A DNA stretch of 35,409 nucleotides from an uncultured Clostridiaceae bacterium. Lineage in GTDB: Bacteria > Bacillota > Clostridia > Lachnospirales > Lachnospiraceae. The notes beneath the pieces are model-generated. The model was not told where the DNA came from and ran no database searches. It worked only from the letters and a program-made list of their open reading frames with translations. The stretch lies in assembly GCA_946185495.1 (NCBI GenBank), contig CAMHJT010000010.1:1-35409 (forward strand), read 5' to 3'. Below are positions 1,267 to 6,292 of this stretch, piece after piece; position 1 is the first letter of the stretch; each line of letters starts with the position of its first letter. The translations under genes and the position numbers were made by a program.

Positions 1267-3363
1267 TTATTTGCTGTAAGAACAATTCCCGACGCCATAG
1301 ACTTTATTATTATTTTTCTTTGTCACATCAGATGTATCCAAATAAAAGCAATTATCGGTATACCCGCTCAATTCAATATTGATGGTCTGGCTGCCGTTCC
1401 CTCCATTATTGAATATCACCTTCGCGTAATCTCCGTTTTCATACCGATAGATATCTTTTCCACTGCTGCTCGTTCCGGCAACCTCAGTCAGCTTGACGCC
1501 CGGCCATTTCGCGTTGCAGTCTGACGAGCTGTTGTAGGCATACACATATACCTCGTCCCAGAGATCATTTTGAAAATACCAGATTCCACCCGTTTCTGTC
1601 TGAGATGAAGTGGAAGACGCTTTCTCCACACCGATCTTCAGCATAAATCCATAAAGCGTATCACAGGCATTCTTGAGCTGAAACTCCTGAATTCCCGGAA
1701 TGGAATACCTAAGCCTTTTAACAGCCTGATACTGGTCAAATGAAGCAAACTCTCCATACTGGTCCAGCATTTTTTCCGCAACTGTATTTAGCTCGTCCAT
1801 GCCCGCATTCTCAGCCACCAGCTCCTTGTCAGCCTTGTAGGTCTCATATTCCGGCTGGATCGTGTTCGAGCGCACCGGTGCAATCTCCTCCGAACCGCGA
1901 GAGCCCTCCATGATATAGCAATATTCCGGATAAATCGCCTCTCCCTTTAAATCCGCCCCGCAGAATACAACCTCGTTTTCATATACCTCAGTGAAATATC
2001 CCTGACTGTTAAGTCCTTTTCCATCGCTGCCCGATGATCCCTTCTGATGGTATAATTCCGGACTGTCATATTCCTGCCCGGAATCCACATTGTTGCCATA
2101 AGTGGTACCGGCAACCGAAGGGTTGTGTATCATATTGCAGGATGCGCCATTCCGGTTGGAATAATTCCTGTCCAGATAAAAATCCTGATGCGTATGTCCG
2201 TTCATCCAGATCAGATCCTTGTACTTCTCAAATATCTTCTTAAGCCCGGAAGCCTTCGACTCCACCACATGTCCGCCATACATCGTATTGTCCCAGTTAT
2301 CCCCTGTGCTGAAGTTTTTGATCGTCGCGTGCTCGATCACATAGATATTGATACCTGTCCCGTAATAGGTATCCAGAAGATCCTGCAGCCATTCCATCTG
2401 TTTGTCGGTAAAGCGGAAGTCAGGGTCGGTCTTATTGCCGCTGCTGTCCTTCTGTGTCCACTCCTCCAGCGCCAGAAAAATAAACAAATCTCCTGTATTT
2501 TGCTCAATCACGTAATAATATGGCTTCTTAGCCTTATAGTTTGCCGCCGTGCTGTCCGTTCCCGTCACCCTCGCAAATGTCAGATTGCCATAATAGGTTC
2601 CCGTAGAATCCTTGCCTCCGCTTCTCATGTCATGATTGCCGTTGCTCTCCCATACATTGCCTGTATAAGGAGATTCCTTGAGAATCTTCGCGTAAGTCTC
2701 GTACTCTGATTTATAAATATCGCTCTTCGCGTTGGTGATCGAGTCTCCGGAAGAGATGATAAAATCCGAATTCATATTCGCGGCATACTTCAGCGCCTGC
2801 GCCCAGTTCTTCTCAGCATTTTTATAATATCCATTCTTGTCAATATGTATATCTGAATAAGAATTAAACGTATATAGCAGCTTGCCGCTTCCTGAATATA
2901 ATTGCTTTTTCTCCGGAAGATCATACACTGCGGCTGCATTTGCCACAGTGGATTCAGAACCTTCCTTCACCGCAATCAGCTTTGTTGCCCCGGCCGGAAT
3001 TGCGATATGATTCCCGAATGTGAACTGCGCAGTCTTGCCTGCCTCCACAGAAAAGCCCTTTCCTCCGAATGACTTCTCCTTCAGCCTGCAGTTCTTCTGT
3101 TCCTCCAGCTTGCTGTCGATCTCATAGTAGCCCTGCAGGGCGCCCTGGTCGTCTGACCAGAACAAATGATAAACCGCCTTTTCATCTGAGCTGATGGTCA
3201 CCGTTCCCTCCGCGTATCCGGCTTTATCCTTTCCATCTCCCTTGAATTCATAGGAAATGGCCGCATCCGCAAGAACCTTTGCCGCCTTCCCCGGCATAGC
3301 AAAGCCAAATGCCAAAAACAGCATTCCTGCCAATAAACATACGCGCCTGTTTTTTTGTTTCAT
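1267..3363 (-). CDS. Secreted calcineurin-like metallophosphoesterase with C-terminal CBM26-like starch-binding module
   Basis: 698 residues from the ATG at 3363. This start gives a proper signal peptide (MKQKNRRVCLLAGMLFLAFG), has GGGGAAG upstream, and is preferred over an in-frame start 15 codons earlier. The metallophosphoesterase domain (about 165-470) shows the metal ligands in order: D171-x-H173, G-D207, GNHD at 242-245, H345, and GHTH at 389-392. Enzymes of this fold hydrolyse phosphomono- or diesters outside the cell; the substrate is not deducible. The last ~95 residues match a CBM26-type starch-binding module (IWYFQNDLWDEVYVYAY, WPGV, YRYENGDYAKVIFNNGG). It has its own promoter at 3424-3452 and is followed after 17 bases by the DUF6273 gene. 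A starch-binding tip on a phosphoesterase suggests attachment to alpha-glucan in the gut, but this is inference. Confidence 0.88.
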   Translation of the reverse strand: MKQKNRRVCLLAGMLFLAFGFAMPGKAAKVLADAAISYEFKGDGKDKAGYAEGTVTISSDEKAVYHLFWSDDQGALQGYYEIDSKLEEQKNCRLKEKSFGGKGFSVEAGKTAQFTFGNHIAIPAGATKLIAVKEGSESTVANAAAVYDLPEKKQLYSGSGKLLYTFNSYSDIHIDKNGYYKNAEKNWAQALKYAANMNSDFIISSGDSITNAKSDIYKSEYETYAKILKESPYTGNVWESNGNHDMRSGGKDSTGTYYGNLTFARVTGTDSTAANYKAKKPYYYVIEQNTGDLFIFLALEEWTQKDSSGNKTDPDFRFTDKQMEWLQDLLDTYYGTGINIYVIEHATIKNFSTGDNWDNTMYGGHVVESKASGLKKIFEKYKDLIWMNGHTHQDFYLDRNYSNRNGASCNMIHNPSVAGTTYGNNVDSGQEYDSPELYHQKGSSGSDGKGLNSQGYFTEVYENEVVFCGADLKGEAIYPEYCYIMEGSRGSEEIAPVRSNTIQPEYETYKADKELVAENAGMDELNTVAEKMLDQYGEFASFDQYQAVKRLRYSIPGIQEFQLKNACDTLYGFMLKIGVEKASSTSSQTETGGIWYFQNDLWDEVYVYAYNSSSDCNAKWPGVKLTEVAGTSSSGKDIYRYENGDYAKVIFNNGGNGSQTINIELSGYTDNCFYLDTSDVTKKNNNKVYGVGNCSYSK

Positions 3364-3423
3364 TCCACATCTTCCCCTTTCCTTTTCAATAGTTTCAAGC
3401 CATTCCAATGTACTGATAGCTCA

Positions 3424-3530: not shown

Positions 3531-3559
3531 TTGACAAAATATATATTCAAATCTACAAT
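3531..3559 (+). promoter_or_regulatory. Sigma-A promoter of the VYGPP protein-radical SAM operon
   Basis: TTGACA (3531-3536), a 17-bp spacer, then TACAAT (3554-3559). This is one of the best matches to consensus in the window. It leaves a leader of about 90 bases. It diverges from the promoter at 3424-3452 with about 78 bp between the two -35 boxes. The 292-bp gap between the two genes holds nothing else recognisable. Confidence 0.8.
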
Positions 3560-3655
3560 AAACACATGAGCAAACACATTTTATCCGCAAACCTGCAGAT
3601 CATTCCAACCGATTTCCAGCTTTGCGTATTTTACTATTGTAAGGAGGAATCAGAC

Positions 3656-5161
3656 ATGAAAAAACCGGGCAGAATCCGTAAACCGATTTATAACCTGGCA
3701 CTGGGTTCCCTGTTAGTAACCGGTATGTCCACTTCGCTGTCCCAGCCTGTGGAAGCAGCCAGGGCTGTTTCCCTAAGCAACAGCCGTATCACGCTTAAGG
3801 TCGGTGATACCAGGAAGATCAAGCTAAAGGGGCTTCCGGCCAAAAAGCTCTCCAAGCTCAAATGGAAAAGCACCAGAAAAAAATGCGCATCCGTTTCATC
3901 CAAGGGCGTTATCACTGCCAAGAAGGCTGGAACCTGTACCGTTTATGTGAAGTACAAGGGCAAAACCTACAAATGCAAGATAATTGTAAAGAAGGTACCT
4001 GCCGCAACGACAGAAGCGGTAACGGAATACTATCCCACAGATACTATAACCACGGAAATGCCGGTCATTTCGCCGGTCACAACGGAACAGCCGGTGTATC
4101 AGCAGCCCGCAACCGAACAGGCTGCCACTACTGAATATGATCCCGGCATCAATATACTCCCTACCGTTTACGGTCCGCCGGAGTATTTCAGCAGCGAGGA
4201 GAATAAAACTGAACAGGCAGCCACCGGGCAGAACAAAACCGAACAGCTCACCAGTGAGCAGGGCAACACCACGCAACCTGTTACCGAACAGAACAAAACC
4301 GAACAGCTTACCGCCGAGCAGTACAAAACCGAACAGCTCACCAGTGAGCAGTACAAAACCGAACAGCTCACCAGTGAGCAGGACAAAACCAAACAGCTCA
4401 CCAGTGAGCAGGACAAAACCGAACAGCTCACCAGTGAGCAGGACAAGACCGAACAGGTTACCGAGCAGGCCACCACCGAGTTTGATCCGGAACATAACAT
4501 GATGCCTACCGTTTACGGTCCGCCGGAGTATTTCAACACCGAACAGGCTACTTCAGAACAAGGCAGAACCGAGCAGGCCACCGGCGAGCAGGAAAAAACC
4601 GAACAGGCTACCACTGAACAGGCCACCACTGAGTTTGATCCGGAACATAACATGATGCCTACCGTTTACGGTCCGCCGGAATATTTCAACACCGAACAGG
4701 CTACTTCAGAACAAGGCAGAACCGAGCAGGCCACCGGCGAACAGAAAAAAACCGAACAGGCTACCACTGAACAGGCCACCACTGAGTTTGATCCGGAATA
4801 TAACATAATGCCTGCTGTTTACGGTCCGCCGGAGTTTTTCAACACCGAGCAGGTCACCAGCGAACAGGAAAAAACCGAACAGGCCACCTTTGAACAGACC
4901 ACTACCACCGAATATGATCCGTGGCAGAATATGGTCGCTCCTGTTTACGGTCCACCGGAGATGCCTACGGACCAACCGGGTCTGGATATAGAGCCGCCAA
5001 AAGAGGATCCCGCAGAGGAATCCACTACACAGGTGAATCCTTATGATCCCGCCCTGAACGAAAACCCAGATGTATACGGGCCTCCGATCTATGACTATGA
5101 CCCTTCACAAAATGAAAACGTGACCGTATACGGTCCACCGGAGGGATTCTATGACGCGTGA
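3656..5161 (+). CDS. Secreted BIG2-like protein with seven VYGPP core motifs; candidate RiPP-type substrate
   Basis: 501 residues. The ATG at 3656 is preceded by AAGGAGG at 3641-3647; an in-frame extension upstream overlaps the promoter and the divergent gene and is rejected. Order: signal peptide (residues 1 to about 35, ending VEAA); a Lys-rich Ig-like domain of BIG2 type (about 38-115: ITLKVGD, LKWKST, VSSKGVITAKKAGTCTVYV); Thr/Glu/Gln-rich linker; about seven 10-residue repeats of KTEQLTSEQD type (192-267); then cores separated by TEQ linkers. Seven cores share [YF]DPxxNxxxxVYGPP[EI] with no gaps. Their Val residues are 171, 286, 337, 388, 430, 473 and 491; the last core ends five residues before the C-terminus. 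I see no LPxTG or membrane anchor. The overlapping radical SAM gene implies that the cores are enzymatically modified. Function is otherwise unknown; a simple adhesin or scaffold is the alternative. Confidence 0.88.
   Translation: MKKPGRIRKPIYNLALGSLLVTGMSTSLSQPVEAARAVSLSNSRITLKVGDTRKIKLKGLPAKKLSKLKWKSTRKKCASVSSKGVITAKKAGTCTVYVKYKGKTYKCKIIVKKVPAATTEAVTEYYPTDTITTEMPVISPVTTEQPVYQQPATEQAATTEYDPGINILPTVYGPPEYFSSEENKTEQAATGQNKTEQLTSEQGNTTQPVTEQNKTEQLTAEQYKTEQLTSEQYKTEQLTSEQDKTKQLTSEQDKTEQLTSEQDKTEQVTEQATTEFDPEHNMMPTVYGPPEYFNTEQATSEQGRTEQATGEQEKTEQATTEQATTEFDPEHNMMPTVYGPPEYFNTEQATSEQGRTEQATGEQKKTEQATTEQATTEFDPEYNIMPAVYGPPEFFNTEQVTSEQEKTEQATFEQTTTTEYDPWQNMVAPVYGPPEMPTDQPGLDIEPPKEDPAEESTTQVNPYDPALNENPDVYGPPIYDYDPSQNENVTVYGPPEGFYDA
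4231..4455 (+). repeat. 30-bp in-frame tandem repeat, about 7.5 units
   Basis: Units begin at 4231, 4261 (diverged), 4291, 4321, 4351, 4381, 4411 and 4441. Each encodes ten residues of KTEQLTSEQ type followed by a variable N, Y or D. Several neighbours are nearly identical, so unit number may vary between strains or be miscounted in assemblies. Confidence 0.85.
4472..4900 (+). repeat. 153-bp in-frame tandem repeat, two near-identical units and a diverged third
   Basis: Units 4472-4624 and 4625-4777 are almost identical, and a third begins at 4778 and diverges. Each is 51 codons: one VYGPPE core plus a TEQ-rich linker. The near identity points to recent duplication of whole core-plus-linker units. 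Confidence 0.85.
5140..5145 (+). promoter_or_regulatory. Ribosome binding site inside the last core codons, decides the radical SAM start
   Basis: GGAGGG at 5140-5145 lies five bases before the ATG at 5151. These bases are also the codons for Pro-Glu-Gly of the seventh core, so the last motif doubles as the Shine-Dalgarno site for the enzyme gene and ties the two translation rates together. Confidence 0.75.
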
Positions 5162-6236
5162 AGAAGCAATCCGCCAGGCAAAGACGATCCAGCTTGACCA
5201 GCTGGCGGATTACCACAAAAACCTATACAAGCACCCGGAGCTTCGGCAATTATTTTTCGAGGTGACCCTTCGCTGCAATGAGCGCTGTTTCCACTGTGGA
5301 AGCCGCTGTGAAAGCGACTCGGAAAACGGCCTCCCTCTCTACAAATTTAAGGAGATCCTCGATGAGGTAAAGGAGAACTTCGACCTCTCCAACCTGCAGC
5401 TTTGCATCACCGGCGGCGAGCCGCTGCTCTATCCTGACTTTTTTGAGCTGATGAGCTACGCCCATGAGCTCGGCTACCAATGGGGCATGACTTCCAACGG
5501 CACCATGATCACAAAGGATGTTGCAAGGAAGCTTCGGGAATGCGGCATGGGCACCATCTCCATCAGCATAGACGGCCTGGAGGAAACCCATGACAGGCAG
5601 AGACGGTATCCGGGCGGGTACCGGAAGGCCATGGACGGCATCCAGAACCTCATCGACGAGGGCGGTTTTGATGCCATCATGGCGACCACCGTCTTTAACC
5701 ATGGGAACATCAACGAGCTGGAGTCCCTTTATGAGATCTTTGATAAGATGGACATCGACATCTGGCGCATCGTCGGCCTGGAGCCGATCGGACGCGCATT
5801 GGATTACCCGGAGCTGATGCTTACGCCGGATGACCACCGGAAGATTTTCTCCTTCATCAAGGCACGGAGGGCGGAAGAGCTTCCTGTCAGCTACGGCTGC
5901 AGCCATTTTGTCGGCCTCGACTACGAGGCGGATGTGCGTGACTGGTATTTCCTTTGCAATGCCGGCGTATATGTGGCCAGCATCATGGCCAACGGCGATA
6001 TCGGCGCCTGCCTCGACATCGAGCGCAATCCGCGGACCATTCAGGGCAATGTCTGGAAGGAACGCTTCACCGATGTCTGGAACAACCGGTTTGAGATCTT
6101 CCGCAGCCCGATCTCCCAGTTAAATAAGGACTGCCGGGAATGTGAATATGAGAAATGGTGCGCGGGAGGCGCACACCACAGCTGGGATTATCAGAATGAC
6201 CGGCAGATGATATGCTTCCGGGATATCCTGTTTTGA
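5151..6236 (+). CDS. Radical SAM/SPASM enzyme, putative maturase of the VYGPP-repeat protein
   Basis: 361 residues. The radical SAM motif CNERCFHC places the [4Fe-4S] ligands at C42, C46 and C49, with C53 just after. GGEP lies at 88-91 and the TSNG strand at 115-118. The C-terminal third has SPASM-type cysteines for auxiliary clusters: C250, C269, C287 (NGDIGAC), C328, C331, C337 and C355. The usual C-x-G-G-C is CAGGA here, so one expected ligand (position 341) is missing. The ~35 residues before the radical SAM core are too short for a RiPP recognition element. It overlaps the substrate gene by 11 bases and ends its operon. SPASM proteins next to repeat-bearing genes usually modify those peptides, for example by thioether, C-C or ether cross-links. 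The substrate assignment is inference; an anaerobic sulfatase-maturase-like role is less likely because no sulfatase is nearby. Confidence 0.85.
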   Translation: MTREEAIRQAKTIQLDQLADYHKNLYKHPELRQLFFEVTLRCNERCFHCGSRCESDSENGLPLYKFKEILDEVKENFDLSNLQLCITGGEPLLYPDFFELMSYAHELGYQWGMTSNGTMITKDVARKLRECGMGTISISIDGLEETHDRQRRYPGGYRKAMDGIQNLIDEGGFDAIMATTVFNHGNINELESLYEIFDKMDIDIWRIVGLEPIGRALDYPELMLTPDDHRKIFSFIKARRAEELPVSYGCSHFVGLDYEADVRDWYFLCNAGVYVASIMANGDIGACLDIERNPRTIQGNVWKERFTDVWNNRFEIFRSPISQLNKDCRECEYEKWCAGGAHHSWDYQNDRQMICFRDILF

Positions 6237-6251
6237 ATGCTTTGGAATTCA

Positions 6252-6292
6252 AAAGAGCTTCAGTACCTTTCAGGTACGAAGCTCTTTTTTTA
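6252..6292 (+). terminator. Rho-independent terminator after the radical SAM gene
   Basis: AAGAGCTTC plus GTACC pairs with GGTAC plus GAAGCTCTT, with one bulged A and a TTTCA loop, followed by seven Ts. It begins 15 bases after the stop codon. Confidence 0.85.

Follow-up and report, generated by a model that had tools for sequence, protein, structure and literature searches.

A candidate leader-independent splicease and its exported multi-site VYGPP substrate in a Lachnospiraceae operon

Spliceases excise tyramine from the peptide backbone at X-Tyr-Gly (XYG) motifs, and the PlpX/PlpY pair is the system of this kind with which the locus described here is best compared. In the available text of PMC10533398, PlpXY removes C8H9NO at XYG, acts naturally on MYG and LYG, and does not need a leader. 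Excerpts of PMC10373908 allow several splicing events per precursor and, like those of PMC11117315, describe spliced products as protease inhibitors, while the available part of PMC12710340 describes PlpY as too small for the fold of a recognition element (RRE) for ribosomally synthesised and post-translationally modified peptides (RiPPs). A partial view of PMC11002830 gives IPR026482 for PlpX. Here we describe a two-gene operon that probably encodes a leader-independent splicease together with its exported substrate. The operon lies in a stretch of 35,409 nucleotides (the window; positions 1 to 35,409 of contig CAMHJT010000010.1, assembly GCA_946185495.1) from an uncultured Clostridiaceae bacterium placed by GTDB in the Lachnospiraceae, and it combines the gene of a repeat-bearing protein with that of a radical S-adenosylmethionine (SAM)/SPASM enzyme.

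A two-gene operon with seven VYGPP sites

The two genes overlap by 11 nt, as read from their open reading frames (ORFs), and a single promoter and a single terminator bracket exactly this pair. All of the following features are on the forward (+) strand:

3531..3559, +, sigma-70-type promoter, TTGACA-17-TACAAT (11/12 consensus matches)
3641..3647, +, ribosome-binding site AAGGAGG, ahead of the ATG at 3656 (sequence reading)
3656..5161, +, substrate gene, encoding a 501-residue exported protein with seven VYGPP sites (ORF and translation)
3656..3757, +, signal peptide of signal peptidase I type, VEA/A, no lipobox (by eye; lipobox regular expression)
3761..3949, +, Big_2 Ig-like domain, residues 36-98 (PF02368, E 4.1e-7, above gathering)
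4166..4180, +, VYGPP site 1 (pattern search, translation)
4228..4456, +, Thr/Glu/Gln-rich linker of 30-bp tandem repeats (repeat analysis)
4511..4525, +, VYGPP site 2, in a 153-bp repeat unit (pattern search, repeat analysis)
4664..4678, +, VYGPP site 3, in a 153-bp repeat unit (pattern search, repeat analysis)
4817..4831, +, VYGPP site 4, in a 153-bp repeat unit (pattern search, repeat analysis)
4943..4957, +, VYGPP site 5 (pattern search, translation)
5072..5086, +, VYGPP site 6 (pattern search, translation)
5126..5140, +, VYGPP site 7, followed by the six final residues of the protein (pattern search, translation)
5151..6236, +, candidate splicease, radical SAM/SPASM enzyme of 361 residues (ORF, domains, tree, signature)
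5274..5303, +, CxxxCxHCGS, residues 42-51, with the SAM-cluster cysteines and the clade-signature Gly-Ser
5955..6215, +, SPASM auxiliary-cluster region, Cys 269, 287, 328, 331, 337 and 355
6251..6288, +, intrinsic terminator, hairpin and T run (folding z -6.4)

Because shuffled sequences contain a similar number of promoter-like sites (2.9 +/- 1.9, against 5 in the scan), support for the promoter comes from the quality of the site at 3531-3559 and not from the count. The 57-nt terminator stretch folds at -23.4 kcal/mol, as well as which none of 200 shuffles folded, and its hairpin is absent from the consensus list of the promoter/signal scan. All seven sites fit the pattern [YF]DPxxNxxxxVYGPP[EI]. 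Copies 2-4 lie within a 153-bp tandem DNA repeat and are thus recent duplicates rather than independent instances; in copies 1, 5, 6 and 7 the codons and flanks vary and VYGPP is kept. In all of these respects the operon is as the initial annotation had described it, including the exported Big_2 protein, the gene overlap and the enclosing signals.

Another substrate is encoded at a distant locus of the same genome (G000), a 64-residue lipoprotein with one VYGPP near its C-terminus, which ends in FDPSDNQNEDVYGPPEYFQ (L165 1272-1466, contig C94, - strand). Its gene adjoins a putative cation-diffusion-facilitator transporter gene, and in three relatives (L009, L012 and L021) the enzyme itself adjoins a transporter gene that looks similar by eye. 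The other off-operon VYGPP match in this genome (contig C52) falls in a 14-residue frame and corresponds to no gene.

Coupling of enzyme and substrate across the family

A pattern-based scan of a species-genome collection yielded 117 confirmed enzyme relatives, the best 80 of which were taken; 80 is therefore a denominator and not a family total. These relatives share 52-68% identity with the window enzyme, their hosts belong for the most part to the Lachnospiraceae, the others being further Clostridia and one Coriobacteriaceae metagenome-assembled genome, and many come from rumen or gut, judging by record titles. An ORF with XYG sites lies near the enzyme in 67/80 loci (at most 0.9 kb upstream or 1.6 kb downstream), and in 62 of the 80 it ends less than 200 nt upstream. 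Several of the loci are near-copies, and after clustering at 90% enzyme identity the coupling stands at 54 of 64 clusters. The motif xYGPP occurs within 1.5 kb on the enzyme strand in 66/80 family loci, compared with 0/28 control loci of other radical SAM enzymes (2.2-4.1 kb each, six frames). The pairing of VYGPP protein and enzyme is thus well supported across the family, and the dedication of the enzyme to a multi-site exported substrate, as first proposed, is supported by the genome search that the initial annotation had suggested.

An order-wide draw of 295 genomes points the same way. Seven carry the enzyme, the window's genome included, and an xYGPP lipoprotein adjoins it in all six others, four of which are new while two have enzymes identical to those of L023 and L050. 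The exact VYGPP DNA pattern is present in 85 of the 295, mostly as scattered singles; judged from the listed positions, G000 and G280, both carriers, are the only genomes with close in-frame groups, and the 288 drawn genomes without the enzyme contain no in-frame tight cluster, the sole close pair outside the carriers (G395, 74 bp apart) being out of frame. Among 60 related genomes there are 37 exact matches to a degenerate VYGPP DNA pattern, and the clustering cannot be put down to chance, because tight clusters are confined to G000 and G032, each just upstream of the enzyme. G032 and two further new carriers (G012 and G003) also have adjacent substrates, with IYGPP in two of the three; their enzymes share 61-67% identity with the closest relative in the set of 80.

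The remaining 13 of the 80 loci have no adjacent substrate, and two of these offer merely 75 and 437 nt of upstream sequence. Enzyme homologues regularly found without a VYGPP-type gene nearby would, according to the initial annotation, have counted against it; such solitary enzymes do exist, and most of their genomes encode a substrate elsewhere. Pattern matches occur in 10 of the other 11 genomes, and translation gives a clear VYGPP lipoprotein in nine and an edge-cut fragment in one (L013); in the eleventh (L063) the exact VYGPP pattern revealed no substrate genome-wide.

Within 4 kb of the enzyme in the 80 loci, the substrate is by far the most widespread neighbour (largest cluster, 56 loci), and the next cluster (12 loci) is of mixed content without fixed strand or place. 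Neighbours named by eye include glycoside-hydrolase-like proteins in 8 loci and ABC-transporter-like proteins in 5, none of which looks linked to the pair. In line with what the initial annotation had noted for the window, no peptidase or exporter recurs as though it belonged to the pair, nor does any small partner, in a count that covers ORFs of at least 60 residues and BLAST matches to 1e-10, so that shorter or very divergent neighbours would escape it.

The substrates themselves form a recognizable family. We counted 82 substrate ORFs, window included, after excluding the spurious ORFs L037_4703 and L067_8520. A regular expression finds a lipobox in 69 of these, and in 10 of the 13 negatives the Cys is where it should be, combined with an atypical lipobox, a wrongly called start or a truncated end. 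Three clearly stand apart: the window protein, a prolipoprotein diacylglyceryl transferase (Lgt; L064) that bears a VYGPP tail, and a membrane protein with a zinc ribbon (L073). Lengths range from 50 residues (a contig-edge fragment) to the 501 of the window protein, the number of sites per protein from 1 to 7, and the first site lies 2 to 14 residues past the Cys in 60 of 75 measured proteins. The window substrate is thus not unique but a member of a family of mostly small lipoproteins, within which the Big_2 version is unusual.

Tyr-Gly is constant in the family while X varies: Val fills that position in 213 of 267 XYG instances, not counting those of the window, with V, L, I, A, E, M and D found across the family, and the two positions past Tyr-Gly are Pro in 91% and 89%. 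Tyr precedes GPP in 240/240 cases, a figure that is strongest for the extra copies per protein because the ORFs were chosen for YG motifs. Asn five residues before X is present in only 53%. Among the residues initially proposed as modified, Tyr is therefore the likeliest target, while Asn-6, Asp-2 and aromatic-1 are not invariant in the family.

Several individual substrates merit description. The Lgt gene of L064 (4500-5549, +; LGT, E 6e-77) carries VYGPPEMMN in a C-terminal extension, and genes for a VYGPP lipoprotein and the enzyme lie downstream of it. In L067 (5067-5978) and L071 (5089-5961), according to Pfam, and in L076 (250-1158), as judged by similarity, the lipoprotein substrate has a fused M15 D-Ala-D-Ala carboxypeptidase domain; the sites of L067 read VYGV, VYGI and EYGV in place of VYGPP. 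The substrate of L160 has a weak, sub-threshold lipocalin-like match. Small proteins with zinc-ribbon-like segments (sub-threshold Pfam matches) in L073 (3846-4142) and L150 (1228-1641) have one site each, CVYGSP or CVYGPP, and show no obvious signal peptide. In genome G032 a 47-residue peptide without signal peptide, bearing YDPSTNMNVEVYGPPEWF, is encoded about 4.4 kb downstream of the enzyme operon (L166 7818-7961, +) and resembles a classical RiPP precursor.

Relationship of the enzyme to TIGR04133 and PlpX-type enzymes

The Radical_SAM and SPASM Pfam models both score above gathering in the 361-residue enzyme. Its AlphaFold model (predicted local distance difference test score, pLDDT, 93.4) includes an N-terminal helix (residues 3-27), and the solved folds closest to the prediction are SkfB and SuiB, followed by BlsE, an enzyme that does not act on peptides, and anSME. 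The PDB, searched by sequence and fold, returned SPASM enzymes but no solved splicease recognizable by name.

The top NCBIfam match of the enzyme is TIGR04133 (rSAM_w_lipo), at 278.2 bits against a cut-off of 425 (E 8.3e-83). Plasmid records of Parabacteroides, Phocaeicola and Treponema saccharophilum contain TIGR04133 members above the cut-off (451-618 bits) that are 35-36% identical to the window enzyme, each beside a TIGR04134 lipoprotein in which CEYGSP, CEYGTP or CYGMP is found at the lipid cysteine or shortly past it. The TIGR04133/TIGR04134 pair, which NCBIfam lists as hypothetical equivalogs, resembles the present family in having a sister enzyme clade and an adjoining lipoprotein that carries XYGxP at the lipobox Cys or a little further on. 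It differs in that the window enzyme falls below the TIGR04133 cut-off, that the Bacillota substrates are mostly multi-site, and that the window substrate lacks a lipobox and carries Big_2. A TIGR04134 scan gave no match in the window protein or in ten relatives.

A second relationship leads to TIGR04103, which we take to be the PlpX group. A Nostoc plasmid enzyme above its cut-off (853 bits) accompanies a Nif11-leader precursor that ends in ALYGLPPELF, and XYG peptides are present in six of seven PlpX-like loci. Among the more distant of these loci, one from Agathobacter has VMYGTG in an unannotated small ORF, two from Bacillota have TAYG and LAYG, the LAYG leader giving a sub-threshold nitrile-hydratase-alpha match, and two from the GDL-motif system described below have PYGP or PYGA. 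The Bacillota small ORFs concerned lie just upstream of the PlpX-like enzymes (L142 1094-1480, L143 1148-1483 and L120 3698-3910) and carry TAYG, LAYG or a C-terminal VMYGTG.

To place the window enzyme, a tree of 57 rows was determined from 26 VYGPP enzymes, 3 TIGR04133 members, 7 PlpX-like enzymes and 21 others (AhbD, NirJ, NirJ2-like, MftC, PqqE and more), with row L133 left out because it gave no usable frame. VYGPP and TIGR04133 enzymes group together with support of 100/99, and these two plus the PlpX-like enzymes, here called the XYG clade, fall on one side of a branch supported at 95/84, which rises to 99/97 when long-branch rows are removed and VYGPP rows thinned (27 rows). Certain residues follow the same division: Gly and Ser of CxxxCxHCGS occur in 36/36 XYG-clade enzymes against 0/21 and 1/21 outside, Trp205 in 36/36 against 2/21, and Glu259 in 35/36 against 4/21. 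From these comparisons the window enzyme is related to TIGR04133 and, less firmly, to PlpX-type enzymes, with which it has HCGS, W205, E259 and the XYG substrate motif in common.

The same larger enzyme clade also includes the GDL-motif system, in which TIGR03913-like enzymes stand beside DUF1843 peptides (L122 1787-1999; L123 2196-2366). Unlike the VYGPP substrates, these are small peptides without signal peptide, and the enzymes are longer, at 474-540 residues. PYGP or PYGA occurs near the N-terminus of one DUF1843 peptide in each of two of three such loci, which suggests that GDL peptides of this kind may be tyramine-spliced too.

Proposed chemistry, alternatives and significance

On the evidence of tree, motif and coupling, we consider it somewhat better than an even chance that this gene pair specifies a splicease that works without a leader, along with the exported protein on which it acts. 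The enzyme would then remove tyramine, most of each Tyr, from the backbone at every VYGPP. Since spliceases excise tyramine at X-Tyr-Gly, the predicted change is about -135 Da per site, leaving an alpha-keto-beta-valine, and not a 2-Da cross-link; the -2 Da knots expected by the initial annotation are thus disfavoured by phylogeny and motif. Radical SAM enzymes are cytosolic, so editing should precede Sec export, and the overlapping genes and unfolded Sec substrate fit such an order of events. The exported protein would then present multiple alpha-ketoamides, held on long, flexible tethers rich in Thr, Glu and Gln. We hypothesize that this array would act as an electrophile that traps or inhibits proteases at the cell surface, although this function is the weakest step of the proposal and a doubtful one. 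Sites on Lgt and carboxypeptidase suggest that editing might have a further use as a reactive tether of a general kind.

Several observations weigh against a splicease. First, the window enzyme scores only 118.8 bits with TIGR04103 against a cut-off of 725, and the AhbD, NirJ2 and MftC models slightly outscore TIGR04103 on it, which makes the ranking by hidden Markov model score uninformative when taken alone; identity to the Nostoc enzyme is 25%. Second, a tree that groups the enzymes with AhbD/NirJ instead of PlpX is 6.3 log units worse and not rejected (57 rows; approximately unbiased test, p-AU 0.203), and the signature residues back the grouping without testing it independently because they were read from the clade-defining rows. 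Third, no PlpY-like partner is present in the two-gene operon or recurs among ORFs of at least 60 residues within 4 kb in the 80 loci, to which the search was confined, so that shorter or very divergent partners would escape it. The window enzyme has its own N-terminal helix, which might, speculatively and on the strength of the predicted model, stand in for PlpY. PlpX-like precursors have Nif11 or nitrile-hydratase-like leaders, whereas VYGPP substrates have signal peptides, and the window substrate, a Sec protein, shows no such leader, Big_2 being its only match above gathering. Fourth, the Tropicibacter locus (L124) has no XYG peptide near its PlpX-like enzyme, and two of three Aureibacter peptides have YA. 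Finally, ten-residue tags have been used with PlpXY, and most of the XYG tags listed for FtsZ in the available text of PMC10533398 were unmodified, so XYG alone does not guarantee splicing.

An unlikely but by no means negligible alternative is that the enzyme alters the VYGPP Tyr in some other way, through a C-C or C-O cross-link, desaturation, epimerisation or a Val-Tyr bond, with a mass change of 0 or -2 Da. SPASM enzymes carry out varied chemistry, as the closest matches of the predicted fold (SkfB and SuiB, then BlsE and anSME) illustrate, and the p-AU value above leaves the AhbD/NirJ grouping standing. The mycofactocin maturase MftC is a SPASM enzyme that likewise acts on Val-Tyr, the site of mycofactocin chemistry in the available part of PMC8326336. 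MftC, however, has its own small precursor MftA and chaperone MftB, neither type of gene being present in the two-gene operon, and it lies outside the XYG clade. A bond to the Val side chain could not be general because X varies, the family conserves no other residue at constant spacing, and the XYG motif and signature common to PlpX-type enzymes would have to be a coincidence. On these grounds both a mycofactocin-like Val-Tyr bond as a general reading and, as the main reading, a -2 Da cross-link through Asn, Asp or the aromatic residue, which are not constant in the family, were dropped, as was a sactipeptide or ranthipeptide, the sites being without Cys.

It is very unlikely that the excised fragment is the product and the repeat protein a sacrificial carrier of a Tyr-derived small molecule, in the manner of the pyrroloquinoline quinone (PQQ) and mycofactocin precursors; the yield from several almost identical sites in one chain would be high, but no recurrent downstream biosynthetic gene stands beside the pair, and sites also occur on proteins with domains of their own, namely Lgt (L064) and the M15 carboxypeptidase lipoproteins (L067 and L071). 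That the VYGPP segments stay unmodified and serve as repeats for binding or anchoring at the surface, the enzyme having another target, as their acidic, proline-rich character, like that of many surface tethers, and the 13 loci without an adjacent repeat gene might suggest, is likewise very unlikely given the coupling in the 80 loci and the order-wide draw, the trans-encoded substrates in 9 (perhaps 10) of 11 orphan-enzyme genomes, and the lack of in-frame tight clusters in drawn genomes without the enzyme.

Two further genes of the window lie on the opposite strand. A DUF6273 protein (2-1249, -) looks exported and has a Thr/Glu/Gln-rich tail that runs off the contig, so such tails are not unique to the VYGPP protein; a calcineurin-like phosphoesterase (1267-3408, -) also looks exported and carries a CBM26 starch-binding module. 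Carriage by a phage or virus was dropped as an explanation, with no megablast match of window positions 1-24000 in phage records and 0/15 viral-contig stretches confirmed as relatives.

Searches of an open-licence library returned no paper that mentions VYGPP, TIGR04133, TIGR04134 or the other names of the pair, although Scott et al. 2022 may cover part of the subject. The predicted reaction is a known one; judged by sequence, what is new is the substrate class, its architecture and its location, together with the putative link of two uncharacterised NCBI families, TIGR04133 and TIGR04134, to spliceases. We regard as evenly balanced the wider proposal that the Bacteroidota TIGR04133/TIGR04134 pairs are the other main branch of this system and that Lgt, M15 peptidase, zinc-ribbon and perhaps lipocalin-like proteins have acquired edited sites by their spread. 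If the proposed splicing is correct, TIGR04133 and TIGR04134, so far named but uncharacterised, would gain a function, and a leader-free, one-enzyme splicease would become available for multi-site protein labelling. Tyramine splicing would then serve to modify surface proteins after translation in Clostridia and Bacteroidota of gut and rumen, and would not be mainly a reaction of small-peptide natural products, which would raise the question of what role reactive alpha-ketoamide arrays play on gut bacteria, protease trapping being the obvious candidate.

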